64,000 bases of DNA from Methylomonas paludis (GTDB lineage Bacteria; Pseudomonadota; Gammaproteobacteria; Methylococcales; Methylomonadaceae), in assembly GCF_018734325.1 (NCBI RefSeq), contig NZ_CP073754.1, forward strand, positions 1,178,001-1,242,000, read 5' to 3'. Every line of letters starts with the position of its first letter. Within the stretch, counting starts at the first letter, position 1. The translations under genes and the position numbers were made by a program. Under the pieces are notes generated by a model, which saw only the letters and a program-made list of their open reading frames with translations, was not told the DNA's origin and made no database searches. This document shows positions 50,254 to 58,569 of this stretch, piece after piece.

Positions 50254-51203
50254 GTAAGGTGGCTTCGCCGCCAGCCAAGCCACCAAACACCGTGGGCGAC
50301 CATAACCAGCCTTATCGCCACCCGTAGCCTCGATGCAGCGCAGCGGAATCGAGGGATTCACCAACCAGCCTTATAGCAACCCGTAGCCTCGATGCAACGC
50401 AGTGGAATCGAGGAATTCACCGCGCAGCCTCAATCAAACCAGAGTCAGCGGGAATCACCATTGCCCAGCTTACCCGGCACCACAAAGCCCCGTAAGGTGG
50501 CTTCGCCGCCAGCCAAGCCACCAAACTCGTGGGCGACCATAACCAGCCTTATCGCCACCCGTAGCCTCGATGCAGCGCAGCGGAATCGAGGGATTCACCG
50601 CGCAGCCTCAATCAAACCAAGGTCAGCGGGAATCACCATTGCCCAGCTTACCCGGCACCACAAAGCCCCGTAAGGTGGCTTCACCACCAGCCAAGCCACC
50701 AAACACCGTGGGCGACCATAACCAGCCTTATCGCAACCCGTAGCCTCGATGTAACGCAGTGGAATCGAGGAATTCACCGCGCAGCCTCAATCAAACCAAG
50801 GCCAGCAGGAATCACCATTGCCCAGCTTACCCGGCACCACAAAGCCCCGTAAGGTGGCTTCACCACCAGCCAAGCCACCAAACACCGTGGGCGACCATAA
50901 CCAGCCTTATCGCCACCCGTAGCCTCGATGCAACGCAGTGGAATCGAGGAATTCACCGCGCAGCCTCAATCAAACCAAGGCCAGCAGGAATCACCATTGC
51001 CCAGCTTACCCGGCACCACAAAGCCCCGTAAGGTGGCTTCGCCGAGCCAAGCCACCAAAACCGTGGGTTACCATAACCAGCCTTATCGCCACCCGTAGCC
51101 TCGATGCAACGCAGTGGAATCGAGGAATTCACCGCGCAGCCTCAATCAAACCAGAGTCAGCGGGAATCACCATTGCCCAGCTTACCCGGCACCACAAAGA
51201 AAT
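50254..51203. repeat. Tandem array of ~179-bp units with two REPs and a gene end each
   Basis: The landmark CCCGTAAGGT recurs at 50251, 50489, 50667, 50846 and 51025, spacings 238, 178, 179 and 179. Each unit holds a GTAAGGTGGCTT hairpin, a GTAGCCTCGATGCA hairpin, and a segment CATTGCCCAGCTTACCCGGC that equals the 3' end of the HD-GYP gene. The first unit has an extra internal copy of the second hairpin (about 60 bp). Apparent ORFs here are by-products of the repeat. Confidence 0.9.
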
Positions 51204-52482
51204 ATTGGCCAAACAAAGGGTGTAACAGATTTTCCAGTTGCTGGGTGTCCAATGGGCTGACTTCCTGATATAACTCAACAGCCATGTCGGTAAACAGCGC
51301 CAGTAATTGCGGGTCGAAGTGGCTGCCGCTGTAAGCTTGCAGATGCGTCAGCGCTTCGTTGATAGACCAGGCCGATTTATAAGGCCGCACCGAGGTGAGG
51401 GCGTCAAACACATCGACAATGGCAAAAATCCGGGCATTGACTGGAATTTGCTTGCCGACCAGGCCGCGCGGATAGCCGCTGCCGTCAAATTTTTCGTGAT
51501 GACATTCCACCACTTCGCGAGCGCCGCTTAACCAGCTGGATTTGGCCACGATATCCACGCCCAGCGAAACATGGGTTTTCATCACTTCAAACTCGGCCGG
51601 CGTCAGTTTGCCCGGTTTCAGCAAAATCGGATCGCGGATGCCGATTTTGCCGACATCATGCAAAAACGCGCCGGCCAGCAGCCGGCGCAGGCTGTCGGCG
51701 CTCAGGCCGGCGGCCTCGCCCAGCTTCAGCGCATAATAAGTTACCCGGTAATTATGACTATTGGTTTCGGCATCGCGCTCGGAAATGGCGCAGCCCAGCA
51801 CATCCAGCAACTCCAGATTGCCCTGCAACAACACCCCGGACAGTTTTACCACGCCGCGTATCAGCGTTACCACCATCGGATACATTAACAGGGTGGCAAA
51901 AGAAGTGCCCAGACTGACGAAAATCAGGGTACGCAACACGTCCTGCCGGATTTTGGCAAAAGTACCCTGATCAACCTGGTATACACCTTCAAAATAACCG
52001 ATCTGACTGTCGTCGAACCGCGATTTCAGCGGCACCAGGATCACCAGCAGCATCTGATCATCAATCAGATGCATTTCATGACTAAAACCATCGGCCTGAG
52101 GAAATTTATGCCGGTAATTATTGGCGTGATATTCCACCGCTTCACTGCCTTTGCGCACCGCTTCCAGTTGCAGCGTTTTGTTTAAATCGTACAACTCCAC
52201 CACCAGAAAGTGCTCTTCCACCAGCTTTTCCGCCAGTTGGTGCAAATGCTGCTGAGTTTTACCATCCAGTTCCGCCAGATTATGCACGCTTTCGGCACTC
52301 AAAATTTGGGCTTCCCGCATGGCCAGAATCCGCACAAATTGCTCAATGCGGTCAATTTCCAGCCATAACATGCCGCCGCCCAATACCAGGCACAGCAGCA
52401 GCCAGCCCAGAAACAGCCGCTGTAAAATCTTCCGGTAAATAGTGTGGCTGGCGGAAAAGCCTGGGCGTTGGATTTTTGTCAT
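51157..52482 (-). CDS. HD-GYP domain cyclic-di-GMP phosphodiesterase
   Basis: The 441-residue protein has an N-terminal membrane helix (LFLGWLLLCLVLGGGMLW), a sensor region of about 150 residues outside the membrane, a second helix (residues ~187-210), and a C-terminal HD-GYP domain. The catalytic motifs are HDVGKIGIRDPILLKPGKL, ECHHEKFDGSGYPRGL (with GYP) and DVFDALTSVRPYK. It should degrade cyclic di-GMP in response to an external signal. Its last ~16 codons fall in the tandem repeat unit downstream. Confidence 0.93.
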   Translation of the reverse strand: MTKIQRPGFSASHTIYRKILQRLFLGWLLLCLVLGGGMLWLEIDRIEQFVRILAMREAQILSAESVHNLAELDGKTQQHLHQLAEKLVEEHFLVVELYDLNKTLQLEAVRKGSEAVEYHANNYRHKFPQADGFSHEMHLIDDQMLLVILVPLKSRFDDSQIGYFEGVYQVDQGTFAKIRQDVLRTLIFVSLGTSFATLLMYPMVVTLIRGVVKLSGVLLQGNLELLDVLGCAISERDAETNSHNYRVTYYALKLGEAAGLSADSLRRLLAGAFLHDVGKIGIRDPILLKPGKLTPAEFEVMKTHVSLGVDIVAKSSWLSGAREVVECHHEKFDGSGYPRGLVGKQIPVNARIFAIVDVFDALTSVRPYKSAWSINEALTHLQAYSGSHFDPQLLALFTDMAVELYQEVSPLDTQQLENLLHPLFGQYFFVVPGKLGNGDSR

Positions 52483-53731: not shown

Positions 53732-54328
53732 ATGGCTAGAAAAATTAACAAACCTTTGCTGTTGGGCTTGCTGATCAGCGCCCAAACCGCCAACGCCAGC
53801 GTCTGGCTACCCTCTGAAAACGTCGATACTGTGATGATCAGCCACACTGGCTCCGCCGAGATCGGCATATTTCCGGTGGGCAATCTCGATGCCACCACCA
53901 AGCCTATCTTGACGGTTAACGGCAATGCCAGCATTAAATTCAGCAAAGACCGGGGAAATTGGGACATCAGCAGCGGCGGACAAACCGCCCGGCTGGGCAG
54001 TTCAGAAAAATTTCAGCTGGGATGGTATGCCAACGGCACCTGGATCAGCGACACCGGCGCGGTTCATGATCCGGAAAACGTCAATGTTTGGCAAATGCTG
54101 TTCAAAACCGCGCCCGATGCTGCCGAGAACACACTGACCGTGAACAATGTCCAGCCTGTTACCGGACTGGCGGCGGTGCTGAGTGTGGAGAAACATTTGC
54201 CCGTCACCGTGTGGCTGACCCTGGCCGGTTTTTTGGGTTTCCTGGCGCTTAATAAACACCGCAGCCCGCCGTTACCGCAATTGCAGCCTGAGGAAGAAAA
54301 GCTGGATATCATTGCCGGTGATGCTTAA
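53732..54328 (+). CDS. Secreted protein with PEP-CTERM-like tail
   Basis: From ATG 53732 (AAGGATGATAG upstream) the 198-residue protein has a signal peptide ending ANASV. Near the C-terminus comes LPVTVWLTLAGFLGFLALNK then HR and an acidic tail. This resembles the VPLPATVWL sorting segment, but with a longer tail after the basic residues than usual. The middle (residues ~25-150) is a beta-rich domain of unknown role. Exosortase processing is inference. Confidence 0.6.
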   Translation: MARKINKPLLLGLLISAQTANASVWLPSENVDTVMISHTGSAEIGIFPVGNLDATTKPILTVNGNASIKFSKDRGNWDISSGGQTARLGSSEKFQLGWYANGTWISDTGAVHDPENVNVWQMLFKTAPDAAENTLTVNNVQPVTGLAAVLSVEKHLPVTVWLTLAGFLGFLALNKHRSPPLPQLQPEEEKLDIIAGDA

Positions 54329-54458
54329 GTTTTTGAGCGGCAGGGTAGCCGGGTAGCGTCATGCTTGGCCCGGCCATCCTGCCCCGGCTAGTGGTTGACT
54401 AGCATCACCCGGCAGTGTTAGCGGATGTGCCGACTCTGGAGGCGCATGGTTCTCGATT

Positions 54459-54488
54459 GATGCGCATCACTACCTTCACACATCCTAC
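54459..54488 (-). repeat. REP-like hairpin (GTAGGATG family)
   Basis: The minus strand reads GTAGGATGTGTGAAGGTAGT then GATGCGCATC. Confidence 0.65.
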
Positions 54489-54520
54489 GCCGTATCCGGC
54501 CAAATAAGATGGGTACACGC

Positions 54521-55267
54521 CTAGCGCAGTACCGTCCACCAGAACACCCGGCCAACGATTTTGACTTTTTTGATTTCGTCCAGGCCTATCAACTCATCCG
54601 GCCATTCCTGTATATTGTAACTGCGCAGCCGAATCCCGCCGCTGACCATTTTGTAAATCATTTTTACCCGCAGGCTGCCGGCATGGTCTATGGCATACAG
54701 ATCGCCGTCGGTAATGGCGGTTTTACTGATATCCACACCCAGAATAGTGCCCTCCGGCAATACCGGCGCCATACTGTTGCCGCTGATATTCAGGCATTTG
54801 ATATTCTTTTCCTCTATGCCCAGTTGTTTGAGGCTGGCTTTGGAAAAACGCAATATTGGGATGGGAAGTTTTCGCATATTGGGTAAACCTATTCCAGCAA
54901 GCTGGGTGGAATCGGGAAACCTGGGCAGCACAATTTCACCCTGAGCCAATGGTGCGCCATCGTCCCAGGTTTCCAGGTCGCCGATAAATTCAGCATTGGC
55001 CGGAATTTCCGGATTAATACTGCGACCAAAATCAATTAACGCCGTATCGTGGCGCTGGTCCATCCAGCCTTTGTATAAGCCAAAAGCCATTTCTATGTTT
55101 CTGGCCACCATATCCCCCATATAACGTCTAATTTTGCTGCTGAGGATTTGGCTGATATAAGCTGCGGAAGTGCCGACTTTTTTGGCAAACTCAGCCTGAG
55201 TCAGCTGCGACTGTTTGAGCAGCAGCACCAGATTTTCGGTTCTAATTTCTTTGATTGTCATATTCAT
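54521..55267 (-). CDS. CI/LexA-like repressor with S24 peptidase domain
   Basis: The 248-residue protein has an N-terminal XRE-type helix-turn-helix (LTQAEFAKKVGTSAAYISQI) and a C-terminal LexA/CI domain with the nucleophile Ser in GNSMAPVLPEG (residue ~173) and the base Lys in GSLRVKMIYK. I see no clear Ala-Gly cleavage site in the linker, so self-cleavage is uncertain. It is divergent from the phage-like genes that follow, with operator-like dyads between. This is the standard layout of a phage immunity region. Confidence 0.85.
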   Translation of the reverse strand: MNMTIKEIRTENLVLLLKQSQLTQAEFAKKVGTSAAYISQILSSKIRRYMGDMVARNIEMAFGLYKGWMDQRHDTALIDFGRSINPEIPANAEFIGDLETWDDGAPLAQGEIVLPRFPDSTQLAGIGLPNMRKLPIPILRFSKASLKQLGIEEKNIKCLNISGNSMAPVLPEGTILGVDISKTAITDGDLYAIDHAGSLRVKMIYKMVSGGIRLRSYNIQEWPDELIGLDEIKKVKIVGRVFWWTVLR

Positions 55268-55333
55268 GTGCGTATTAAACCACCTTTTAGCAAAATGTAA
55301 ATGTGCAATTCGATAAATATGCTTGTTTTTTAT

Positions 55334-55420
55334 TTAGCAATACGCTAATATCGCTACCGGTTCGCTGGTTAGCGGCGCTTAGCTCAGCAAATACAAGGCT
55401 TAGAGCTGCTAATTAGCTAA
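55334..55420. promoter_or_regulatory. Operator-like TTAGC dyads between repressor and module
   Basis: TTAGCAATACGCTAA (55334-55348) is a perfect TTAGC-N5-GCTAA dyad. TTAGC repeats directly at 55369 and 55379. The palindrome GCTAATTAGC lies at 55408-55417. The repeated half-site suggests cooperative binding of the CI-like protein. Confidence 0.6.
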
Positions 55421-55478
55421 ACAAGTTTACCGCCGGCAGATCGGGAATATAGTCTGCCTCATTAACTACCCCGCCTGT

Positions 55479-55501
55479 CCGGCCTCTGGCCGGGCTTTTT
55501 T
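55479..55501 (+). terminator. Rho-independent terminator in the module leader
   Basis: CCGGCC-TCT-GGCCGG followed by GCTTTTTT lies 35 bases before the start of the next gene and after the operators. It is placed as a leader terminator and would require read-through or antitermination. Confidence 0.65.
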
Positions 55502-55536
55502 GGCTGGGGCTGAATCTGGTGTGGAGATGGATAGCA

Positions 55537-56361
55537 ATGAGAACGGCCTGGAATGATGCGGAAGATGATGCTTTGCAAGGTTTACCACTGCGGGCGCAGA
55601 TTATTTATTTACGCGGTATCCGCCGCTATATGGATTATCGCAGCCGCATCTGCGGCGGCCCTGGCCGGCGCATAAGTCTGACCATGCTGGCCGAAACCGT
55701 GCAGGAACTGGTTAACCGGCAGATACAGCCCAAAGCCAGCAAGGATGCCATCCGTGCCGCCCTAGCGCAATTGAAGCGGGCCGGGCTGATCGAACGTCTG
55801 GAGGATGCCGATTATCTACTGTTTTATCTGCCCAAGGCCGATACGGATAAATCCGTGCCGAATCACCACCCCACAAGCACCCCGCAACCCGGCACCGCCG
55901 ACCAGCAACCCAGCTGCGCCGCAGCTGATGCGCCTAACCCCGGCCACTGGTCTGCAACCACCCAGGGGCAGGCACTTAACCACCACCCCACTCATCAGGA
56001 TTCCGGTACTCAGGTTAAAAACCCACTACCTGACGGTAGTGCAGACCTTGGCATCGCCCGCGCCCCGGCTCCGCCATACCAGGCCATCGTCAGCGCCTAT
56101 CACGAATGTTTGCCCGGTCTGCCCAGAGTTTACAAACTCACCGACAGCCGCCGCCGTCACATCAAAGCCTTGTGGGCCGATGAACTGGATGACCTGGCCA
56201 GCTGGCGGCATTATTTTCGCCACATCAGTCGCTCGGATTTTCTGATGGGCCGCTGCCGGGGCCGGGATGGCACCGTATTTCAGGCCTCGTTTGATTTCAT
56301 CATCCACCCGGCCAAATTCATCAAAATCGCCGAGGAGCAATACCATGCCAAAAAAGTTTAA
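55537..56361 (+). CDS. Phage-like replication/regulatory protein
   Basis: From ATG 55537 the 274-residue protein has an N-terminal region beginning RTAWNDAEDDALQGLPLRAQ, then a winged-helix-like segment (SKDAIRAALAQLKRAGLIERL, residues ~70-90), a Pro/Thr/Gln/His-rich linker (~105-170) and a C-terminal helical domain. This two-domain plan with flexible linker resembles phage O-type replication initiators. I infer that role from plan and position only. It overlaps the next gene by 17 bases. Confidence 0.55.
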   Translation: MRTAWNDAEDDALQGLPLRAQIIYLRGIRRYMDYRSRICGGPGRRISLTMLAETVQELVNRQIQPKASKDAIRAALAQLKRAGLIERLEDADYLLFYLPKADTDKSVPNHHPTSTPQPGTADQQPSCAAADAPNPGHWSATTQGQALNHHPTHQDSGTQVKNPLPDGSADLGIARAPAPPYQAIVSAYHECLPGLPRVYKLTDSRRRHIKALWADELDDLASWRHYFRHISRSDFLMGRCRGRDGTVFQASFDFIIHPAKFIKIAEEQYHAKKV

Positions 56362-56800
56362 ACAAGATTGCGCCCCGCCCAGCGCTAAGCCGGCTATCAA
56401 GGTCTCACTGCTGGAATACCTCCAGGATAGCGCGCCGGACATACTGCTGCCTTTGCCTATCATGGCGGAAGTATCGGCGCTGCGTTTCTGGCAAGAGACC
56501 TTTCAACCGCTGCGGCCCGGCGAAGCCAGATATCTGCAGGCCGGCGGCTGGCGCTGGCCCTATGCCGAGCGTCTGGTGTATCTGGCCCGGGAATTCATCA
56601 AACTGGACGAGCGCAGCCGCCGCTATGTACTGAAAGCCGCCGCCGCACAAATCTGGTGGCGCGGCGACGATATGCAGCGTTTTCAAAACATCGTCCAGGC
56701 CCATTTACGCTATCGCAGCCTGAATCCGGAGCAGCGCCTTGAATACCGGCGCCGCTTGATGCAGGCGGCAAAAGGCCTGGGCCGCGGGCAGTTGCATTAA
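56345..56800 (+). CDS. Hypothetical protein of the phage-like module
   Basis: The 151-residue basic, helical protein (start MPKKFKQDCAPP) has no motif that I can name. Its start overlaps the upstream gene, so it is probably translated with it. Many Arg and aromatic residues in RYLQAGGWRWPYAERLVYLA and RSRRYVLKAAAAQIWWRGDD suggest nucleic acid or protein contacts. Confidence 0.55.
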   Translation: MPKKFKQDCAPPSAKPAIKVSLLEYLQDSAPDILLPLPIMAEVSALRFWQETFQPLRPGEARYLQAGGWRWPYAERLVYLAREFIKLDERSRRYVLKAAAAQIWWRGDDMQRFQNIVQAHLRYRSLNPEQRLEYRRRLMQAAKGLGRGQLH

Positions 56801-56903
56801 GCCGATTTAAACAGGCTCTACCGGATTACGCTGAGACATTACCTTATTTTCAAAGCACACATAGCCGTTTACCAAGCACATTTGCCACCTATAGGAGCAC
56901 AAA

Positions 56904-57182
56904 ATGGAAAATCCCGATGATCAATTTCAGCGCCGGGCAATTGTCGGTGACCGGCATTTTATTCTGGCTGATGTCAATCAGCCCGACCACTGGGCGCTGG
57001 CCGGGCCGGTGGTGCTGGCCACCGATGCCGACGGCAATCGTCGCTTCGGCCCGGCCCGTACCATCACCACCGCGCAACTAAGCGCCTGGGCCGCCGGGCA
57101 AAATCTGCGTCTGCAGATAGCCGACAAATTTCCGCTGGTAAGGCGCGATATCAGCGCATCCATAATAGAACCCGCCTACTAA
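56904..57182 (+). CDS. Hypothetical protein of the phage-like module
   Basis: The 92-residue protein (start MENPDDQFQRRAIVGD) has no recognised domain. AGGAG lies upstream of the ATG. It precedes the exonuclease-like gene by about 22 bases, in the same direction. Confidence 0.5.
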   Translation: MENPDDQFQRRAIVGDRHFILADVNQPDHWALAGPVVLATDADGNRRFGPARTITTAQLSAWAAGQNLRLQIADKFPLVRRDISASIIEPAY

Positions 57183-57204
57183 GCCCGCTTTGCGAGTAAA
57201 TCTG

Positions 57205-57885
57205 ATGGCCACACTTTATCTGGATATCCAAACCATACCCAGTCAGCAAGCACAGCTGATAGCTCAGATCCGGCACAGCCTGAAACCACCCGCCAACTAC
57301 AGCCAGCCCGACAGCATAGCCAAATGGTATCAACAGCAATTACCGGCGGCGGCGGCCAAAAAACATCGGCAAACCGCGCTGGATGGCTTATATGGGGAAA
57401 TCTTTTCCATCGCCTGGGCCATCGATGACGGTGCCGTCATGGCCTTCTGGCGCGATGACCAGGCCAGCGAACGCAGCCTGCTGGAACAATTCATGCTGGA
57501 ACTGGCCGAAGTCAGCGACAGCCAGGGCCGGCGCCTGCCCATCCGACGCTGGGTGGGGCATTACATCAGCGGTTTTGATTTACGCTTTCTCTGGCAGCGC
57601 TGCGTGATCTGCCGGGTGCGGCCCAGTCTGGCCTTACCGCTGGACGCCGGGCTTTGGGATGACCGGGTGTTTGACACCAGTCGCATGTGGAACGGCGACG
57701 GCAACGGCCAAAGCAGTCTGGCCGCTTTGGCTCAAGGTTTGGCCCTGGCCGAACAGCCCGGCCTGGACGGCAGCCAAATCTATGACTTATGGCTGGCCGG
57801 CCGCTATGACGAAATAGCCGCCTATAACCGCCAGGCCGTGAGTTTGAGCCGGGCCTTATACAAGCGCATGTTGTTTAAAGATTAA
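57205..57885 (+). CDS. PolB-like 3'-5' exonuclease with altered first motif
   Basis: The 226-residue protein resembles the predicted 3'-5' exonucleases related to the PolB exonuclease domain (PF10108). The first motif reads YLDIQTIPS where the family has D-x-E; the Glu metal ligand is Gln here. A later motif VGHYISGFDLRFLWQRC carries the second Asp, and the last motif YDEIAAYNRQAV has Asp at its expected place. The enzyme may be weakened or inactive. A start at 57190 (TTG) is possible, but ATG 57205 fits better. Confidence 0.7.
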   Translation: MATLYLDIQTIPSQQAQLIAQIRHSLKPPANYSQPDSIAKWYQQQLPAAAAKKHRQTALDGLYGEIFSIAWAIDDGAVMAFWRDDQASERSLLEQFMLELAEVSDSQGRRLPIRRWVGHYISGFDLRFLWQRCVICRVRPSLALPLDAGLWDDRVFDTSRMWNGDGNGQSSLAALAQGLALAEQPGLDGSQIYDLWLAGRYDEIAAYNRQAVSLSRALYKRMLFKD

Positions 57886-58334
57886 TCCGGCACGATTACG
57901 CCGATACTGCCCAAACCATCGGTGCAGTCACTGCCCAGCGGCAAGGGCTGAATTTTGCCCACATAGCTTTCCTGCAGGCCGGTTTTTTTGCCCTGGAAAA
58001 ACTTGCAAGTGCTGGCCTGCGGGGCTAGGGAACGGCTTTGCGCCGCAGTCTGTGCCGCCTGAATTTTAGCGGCTTCCTCCGCCTCTTCCTCGGCTTCATC
58101 ATCAGCATCCAACACCGTAATACCCAAACTACCGGCCCCGTCAGTACAGGGCTTACCGATAGCCAAAGGCTTGGCTTTACCGGCCAAATCTTCCACCTGA
58201 CCCAGTTTAGGGCCTTCGTTATAGCGGCAAGTGCTGGACACCTGCCCAGGTTTAGCATGTTGAGCACTGGCCAGACTCTGCTGATAGGGCAGGGCAGACA
58301 TGATTATAAATAAGCTAATTAGCAGTTTAGACAT
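57882..58334 (-). CDS. Exported protein with two TC-CTDG repeats
   Basis: The 150-residue protein has a signal peptide and two copies of a ~40-residue unit: STCRYNEGPKLGQVEDLAGK ... PCTDGAGSLGITV and STCKFFQGKKTGLQESYVGK ... DCTDGLGSIGVIV. Each unit has two cysteines that may pair. An acidic/Ala-rich linker lies between them. The function is unknown. It converges with the exonuclease gene with a 4-base overlap. Confidence 0.7.
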   Translation of the reverse strand: MSKLLISLFIIMSALPYQQSLASAQHAKPGQVSSTCRYNEGPKLGQVEDLAGKAKPLAIGKPCTDGAGSLGITVLDADDEAEEEAEEAAKIQAAQTAAQSRSLAPQASTCKFFQGKKTGLQESYVGKIQPLPLGSDCTDGLGSIGVIVPD

Positions 58335-58569
58335 GATATTGAGCTGAGTTTAATAACAAAAAAACCATGTTAGCCACTGTATGTAACGGTTTTGTGACAA
58401 GCGCTGCCCTTGTCTGCGCCAGTGCCAGATAAGTTTTCAGGAAGTTATTGTTGGTATACAGAAAATATGCTAGCTTCTAACAGGTTTATTTGCCATAGAT
58501 CAATCAATGGTTGGCAGCGGTTAAAACTCAGCACTTACACCTTACCTAAAACCTGCTCAGGAGAGCGAC

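Follow-up and report, generated by a model that had tools for sequence, protein, structure and literature searches.

The window analysed here is a 64,000-nt stretch of Methylomonas paludis contig NZ_CP073754.1 (positions 1,178,001 to 1,242,000), from a bacterium that we take, from the pmo/pxm-like genes nearby, to be a methanotroph. Positions 54521-57885 of this window hold a compact block of five genes, in which a CI-like repressor gene is divergent from genes for an O-like replication initiation protein, two short open reading frames (ORF3 and ORF4) and a PolB-type exonuclease (Table 1). The control region between the repressor and O-like genes contains operator-like words, a leader terminator and, just 5' of the latter, an H-type RNA pseudoknot. 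This pseudoknot, which a first-pass annotation of the same sequence had not noticed, recurs across diverse phage contigs and is the main subject of this report.

Table 1. Features of the repressor-replication block, in coordinates of the window. S1 and S2 are the two stems of the pseudoknot.
Feature	Positions	Strand	Basis or detail
CI-like repressor, helix-turn-helix and S24 peptidase domain	54521..55267	-	Pfam, PHROG
Candidate rightward promoter TTGTTT-17-TAATAT	55323..55351	+	by eye, weak
Operator-like dyad TTAGCAATACGCTAA, clearest TTAGC dyad, within promoter spacer	55334..55348		conserved block of three leaders
Further TTAGC/GCTAA words TTAGCGGCGCTTA, GCTAATTAGCTAA	55369..55420		word count
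H-type RNA pseudoknot	55430..55458	+	S1 55430-55432/55442-55444; S2 55435-55441/55452-55458
Intrinsic terminator GTCCGGCC-TCT-GGCCGGGC-T6	55477..55501	+	stem 55477-55495, then T6
O-like replication initiation protein, 274 aa	55537..56361	+	phrog_345
ORF3, 151 aa, adjoins O-like gene	56345..56800	+	Pfam/PHROG scan, homologues
ORF4, 92 aa	56904..57182	+	homologues in relatives
PolB-type 3'-5' exonuclease, 226 aa	57205..57885	+	PHROG, Pfam

Alignment of the window leader with those of the corresponding blocks in two related genomes (G032 and G022) revealed a conserved block ahead of the terminator. A first pattern derived from it matched 19 viral contigs, nine with ACCGCTGGCAGACCGGG..AATAGTCTGC and 10 resembling coding coincidences, and wider patterns matched 16 genome contigs and at least 120 viral rows. 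In the cultured Xanthomonas phage XAJ2 the match lies 12 nt before an annotated ORF and carries AAGCG/CGCTT where others have CCCG/CGGG, a replacement that suggested an H-type pseudoknot. The resulting layout is S1, CU, GGCAGAC, the second strand of S1, an A-rich loop and GUCUGCC, and the window copy matches our model (R2) with 34.5 bits. The XAJ2 copy (L200, 2496-2528) has a 5-bp S1 and stands 5' of a run of hypothetical, recombinase and single-stranded-DNA-binding protein (SSB) genes.

A search that left S1 free and set CGGG-type sites aside returned 50 sites on 49 contigs, 39 of them non-redundant. At least three contiguous S1 pairs can form in 31 of these 39 (mean 7.3 and maximum 15 in 5000 shuffles), and at least four in 20 (mean 2.1, maximum 8, again in 5000); the eight sites that fail S1 pairing may be chance matches. 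When three bases on each side of S2 were left free, 30 of 54 non-redundant sites were complementary (shuffle mean 13.4, maximum 20), as were 5 of the 26 non-CAG sites, and the middle-base variants seen were CAT/ATG, TAG/CTA and CAC/GTG. In a 76-row alignment all five S1 pairs vary on both sides, S2 is paired in 99.4% of cells, and standard pairs occupy 91.6% of cells versus 28-38% after sliding; the rows of this alignment had been selected for S1 of at least three pairs and for set S2 types, and the fair tests are those on 39 and 54 sites. S1 covaries, and S2 and loop 1 are conserved in sequence.

The counts that follow mostly concern 75 sites, obtained from 86 non-redundant matches by removing five with other S2 sequences and six judged by eye to be coding coincidences (L070, L071, L072, L077, L078 and L181). 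Redundancy was filtered by shared 14-mers or 16-mers in the flanks, and related phages remain (e.g. L084/L089, L083/L092 and L206/L240); in two scans, 8 and 7 redundant or own loci were removed before counting. No Rfam family reached threshold in the window or in the G032 and G022 loci (L017 and L018), and in 14 loci carrying the motif none matched at its position, with two tRNAs and one suhB elsewhere; other scans produced weak matches only. With no Rfam match at the motif, an Rfam family or STAXI RNA was rejected as the identity of the pseudoknot, and so was a general bacterial element, as only the window's own match was convincing among 299 genomes of the phylum. A literature search by sequence strings, phage pseudoknots or structured RNAs, and pseudoknot terminators found no description of the motif among the matches listed; a survey of 224 RNAs from 2017, or a mass prediction of phage RNAs from 2023, may contain it.

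Among 39 records searched with the model, 34 match at E 0.01, of which 32 have one copy and two have two; the remaining five had been fetched for the exonuclease and serve as a rough control. The element typically lies between genes. At 63 of the 75 sites an ORF that is 70 aa or longer, or runs off the contig start, ends no more than 150 nt upstream, with a median of 14 nt from stop codon to S1. Downstream, 56 of 81 sites have an ORF start on their own strand no more than 150 nt away (median 26 nt), compared with 34 of 81 for the opposite strand. Proteins were scanned for 58 of 69 upstream genes (the 11 omitted were mostly short) and for 68 of 69 downstream genes plus that of the window. The upstream gene encodes an SSB or ssDNA-annealing protein in 11 of 58 cases (phrog_9002, 112, 1192 and 7011) and a major head protein in four, and the downstream proteins are diverse, with replication, recombination, tail and methyltransferase functions among the 25 commonest families displayed. 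A pseudoknot-stimulated read-through of the upstream stop codon was considered and rejected, since the reading frames stay open after the stop for mostly fewer than 30 codons, with no general long extension.

A T-rich stretch stands 3' of the pseudoknot much more often than expected. At least four T within 6 nt occur at 37 of 75 sites, versus 16% of 222 windows further downstream and 9 of 75 sites on the other strand, and at least five at 21 of 75, versus 4.1% and 2 of 75, respectively. The enrichment spans +2 to +13, and a G-poor tract runs from +3 to +11. Classical terminators lie 3' of the pseudoknot at 6 of 75 sites, two being those of G032 and G022, versus 2 of 75 on the other strand. A hairpin occupies the gap after the SSB gene in all four of the cultured or named phages examined whose SSB is related to that of L127 (L279-L282), followed by a clear T-run in three and a weaker one in L279; two Rhizobium phages and one pelagiphage show, by eye, different hairpins. 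Among individual copies, that of L089 has a promoter-like site 3' of the motif, and that of viral contig L190 (1965-1998) is followed by what looks by eye like a tRNA.

Profile searches agreed with the gene content that the first-pass annotation had proposed from the letters and translations. The repressor matches Pfam Peptidase_S24 (2.6e-17) as well as phrog_4 and phrog_6201 (CI-like repressor), the O-like ORF, with its ATG at 55537, matches phrog_345 (E 1e-28), and the exonuclease, with its ATG at 57205, matches phrog_403 (1e-8) and, slightly below the cut-off, Pfam DNA_pol_B_exo2. Exonuclease homologues occur in 113 of 50,697 phage records, every one below 60% identity. ORF3 and ORF4, announced as two proteins of unknown kind, have no significant match in Pfam or PHROG; the predicted fold of ORF3 is all helical with a pLDDT of 58.7 from a four-row alignment, and searches of viral contigs and phages with ORF3, and of the PDB with the O-like protein, were uninformative. 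All ORFs of the module are intact. Pfam and PHROG found no integrase, packaging or capsid-hijacking gene, the marks of a phage satellite of PICI/cos type, among the five, a result that covers these genes and not integrases or att sites elsewhere in the window. PADLOC gave no clear match, the window has no tRNA, and Terminase_6N has no match in the whole 3.67-Mb genome. An interspersed repeat at 54410-54533, just past the repressor gene's 3' end, has about 50 genomic matches at 77-90% identity; some of the matches form tandem groups, and the repeat looks REP/BIME-like. Elsewhere in the window, repeated ORF translations (MQRSGIEEFTAQPQSNQ...) at 50392-51268 point to tandem repeats of about 180 bp, 3' of the pmo/pxm-like genes.

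The repressor had been described as facing repeated TTAGC dyads, with a Rho-independent terminator between these and the first gene, and both descriptions were upheld. TTAGC/GCTAA words number eight in the 273 nt of 55268-55540, versus 1.6 per kb across the window. The candidate promoter was missed by a promoter scan, which did list the aligned G032 site (TTGATT-17-TATATT); by eye, the leaders of the window, G032 and G022 each have a TTG-N17-TANATT-like promoter with a TTAGC dyad or near variant in the spacer. Among 11 terminator-like sites in 54000-58500 (shuffle mean 6.1), the leader terminator is the richest in G-C pairs, its hairpin folding at a computed -14.3 kcal/mol with the U-tract directly after the GC-rich stem, and it has a counterpart in both relatives. 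No plus-strand ORF of at least 50 aa that could encode a Cro-type second repressor lies between the operators and O (55301-55518); cro, cII, N and nut were not seen in the unit, nor were N-, Q- or put-like parts identified.

We searched for the gene set in 37 genomes of the genus, and for the exonuclease and ORF3 in 61 genomes (this one and 60 relatives). The repressor, O-like, ORF3 and ORF4 genes occur together in three of the 37, at different genomic places, so that the genes are not unrelated elsewhere, as the first-pass annotation had allowed they might be. G032 and G022 keep the order and orientation of the window, with 45-69% identity for the repressor (45% and 49%), O-like protein (66-69%) and ORF3. 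The exonuclease is present in 3 of the 61 genomes and ORF3 in 4, including G003 at E 9e-4 only, which is not counted further. In G032 additional genes separate ORF4 from an exonuclease 61% identical to that of the window; by their translations these include two ferritin-like genes and a DEAD-box helicase (L017, 2954-5351), either cargo or a rearrangement. The relatives search found no exonuclease in G022, where a short repeated stretch (MRRNTLSLLRPMFF-like translations; L018, 13700-14130) lies between ORF3 and ORF4. Partial sets exist too: G019 has, at a contig end, the repressor, an O-like protein of 129 aa and the start of an ORF4-like gene, with a partial exonuclease match on a different contig; G494, of another genus in the family, has the O-like and ORF3 genes near a tyrosine-type integrase; and viral contig L263 carries genes for a repressor and an O-like protein and, further on, one for a terminase, names that apart from the O-like one were read from translations. 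An empty-site search with the right-hand gene showed only that G000, G032, G022 and G019 have that gene in common.

The surroundings of these copies bear on the origin of the block. The G032 copy has a major head gene and a tail gene about 8-18 kb away, beyond the far side of the repressor, and in G022 ORF4 is followed in line by genes for both terminase subunits, small and large. These neighbours support the earlier description of a phage-like module and fit decaying temperate phages; the block as read from its genes is phage-derived, an ordinary early region of temperate phages and unremarkable by itself, and the window copy either lost the remaining phage genes or never had them. The further proposal of a domesticated or satellite-type unit, kept by host selection rather than being a relic, loses ground here and we regard it as unlikely. 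Its intact ORFs, the recurrence of the four-gene core at different places in three related genomes, of which two showed no capsid genes in the stretches examined, and the integrase beside O and ORF3 in G494 would all suit such a unit. Against it stand the capsid/tail and terminase genes of the relatives, the absence of fixed boundaries, five genes that include no integrase or packaging gene, and a core restricted to 3 of 37 genus genomes plus one shorter form.

The gene content and recurrence of the block, its terminator, and the pairing, location and U-tract of the pseudoknot can be read from the sequences themselves, and they are consistent with the following model. The unit would be what remains, in a methanotroph chromosome, of a temperate tailed phage: its immunity-plus-replication region. 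Its repressor very probably shuts the rightward promoter, whose spacer would be the operator. When the promoter fires, a leader RNA of about 140 nt would be made, the pseudoknot would fold, and the polymerase would meet a strong intrinsic terminator; most transcription is expected to stop there, giving a short RNA whose 3' end is structured, and read-through alone would extend into the four genes from O to the exonuclease. At transcript ends the pseudoknot may aid termination, shield the 3' end, or both, and would thereby set a strongly expressed segment apart from the genes 3' of it. We give this model as a whole about an even chance. We also put forward, tentatively and as somewhat short of even, a broader claim: that the pseudoknot defines a phage RNA family that is widespread and not in Rfam, standing in for the hairpin of an intrinsic terminator or capping mRNA 3' ends after the genes of the most abundant phage proteins (SSB and capsid), and that the copy in the window leader feeds a classical terminator. 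Taken together, the T-rich stretch, the classical terminators and the hairpins in the same gap of cultured relatives favour a role at the 3' end or in termination, as a correlation.

Several observations weigh against these proposals. The T-rich stretch begins 3-4 nt past the stem, and half of the sites, the window copy included, lack one. One copy per phage and the strict conservation of S2 and loop 1 suit a specific binding site better than a general terminator. No ORF of 50 aa lies ahead of the pseudoknot in the window, G019 has a similar repressor/O layout with neither pseudoknot nor terminator, and the pseudoknot is in none of 12 cultured-phage stretches; at E 0.01 the 299-genome phylum sample gave eight matches, which apart from the window's own read as chance. 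The promoter, operators and gene functions are themselves predictions.

A binding site could instead be a translational operator of the downstream gene, at which a phage SSB or host factor nucleates and then, extending over the G-poor tract, occludes the following ribosome site. The median of 26 nt to the next start, the position of that tract, the 11 of 58 sites with an SSB gene directly upstream and the precedent of T4 gene 32 (PMC3014915) are compatible with this. Yet the SSB genes, being upstream, are not the likely target, a single RNA sequence serves four PHROG SSB families and capsid genes alike, and the downstream genes are very diverse, with starts 5-144 nt away; we think such an operator improbable. 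Less probable still is a riboswitch aptamer or RNA-sensing attenuator, in which the fold and an antiterminator exclude each other and switch the window terminator. Its attraction lies in the conserved loop 1 and S2 and in the pseudoknot standing immediately 5' of a terminator in all three leaders (those of the window and the two relatives), as at 6 of the 75 sites including those of G032 and G022. Most sites, though, have no terminator and the downstream genes share no common pathway. The mutually exclusive pairing was rejected: duplexes of -16 to -21 kcal/mol can form, yet these do not clearly exceed dinucleotide shuffles (13, 80 and 74 of 300), and the other four terminator sites fare worse. 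Control by antitermination, suggested in the first-pass annotation, suffers likewise, the pairing between the 5' half of the pseudoknot and a terminator arm not exceeding shuffles in two of three species and being marginal in the third, and no N-, Q- or put-like part having been identified.

If the proposed role at transcript ends is correct, phages of distant hosts share a compact, near-invariant RNA part, which would imply one conserved host target (polymerase, ribosome or nuclease), and the pseudoknot would mark an unseen control of phage SSB and capsid genes through their 3' untranslated regions. It also offers a ready test case for pseudoknots in transcription termination or 3' protection.

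Two described RNAs come close to the element. The leader pseudoknot of T4 gene 32 is, according to PMC3014915, a short, coaxial H-type fold in a phage mRNA linked to an SSB gene, and the phage pseudoknot is likewise short, H-type and SSB-linked; unlike an operator of the gene 32 type, which sits in the leader ahead of the SSB gene and is bound by that gene's own product, the element here lies 3' of several SSB families and of capsid genes, with a sequence common to phages. STAXI RNA, as PMC2864571 presents it, is a pseudoknot in tandem, with 2-3 repeats and frequent UUCG loops, near SSB and other DNA-handling genes. The neighbourhood is similar, but the element here is single and had no Rfam match in 14 motif loci.

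The lambdoid immunity and replication region runs from cI through pR and a leader terminator to O. The five-gene block departs from it in having no cro, cII, N or nut seen, and in its leader pseudoknot and its ORF3 and ORF4; it resembles it in a CI-like S24 repressor divergent from an O-like gene, with operators in the promoter and a terminator ahead of O. In contrast to an intrinsic terminator, the element is a pseudoknot and not a hairpin, its T-rich stretch is offset by 3-4 nt and not universal, and its primary sequence is conserved. It shares with such terminators a GC-rich stem, often with a T-rich stretch after it, and it occupies the gap that hairpins fill in cultured relatives.

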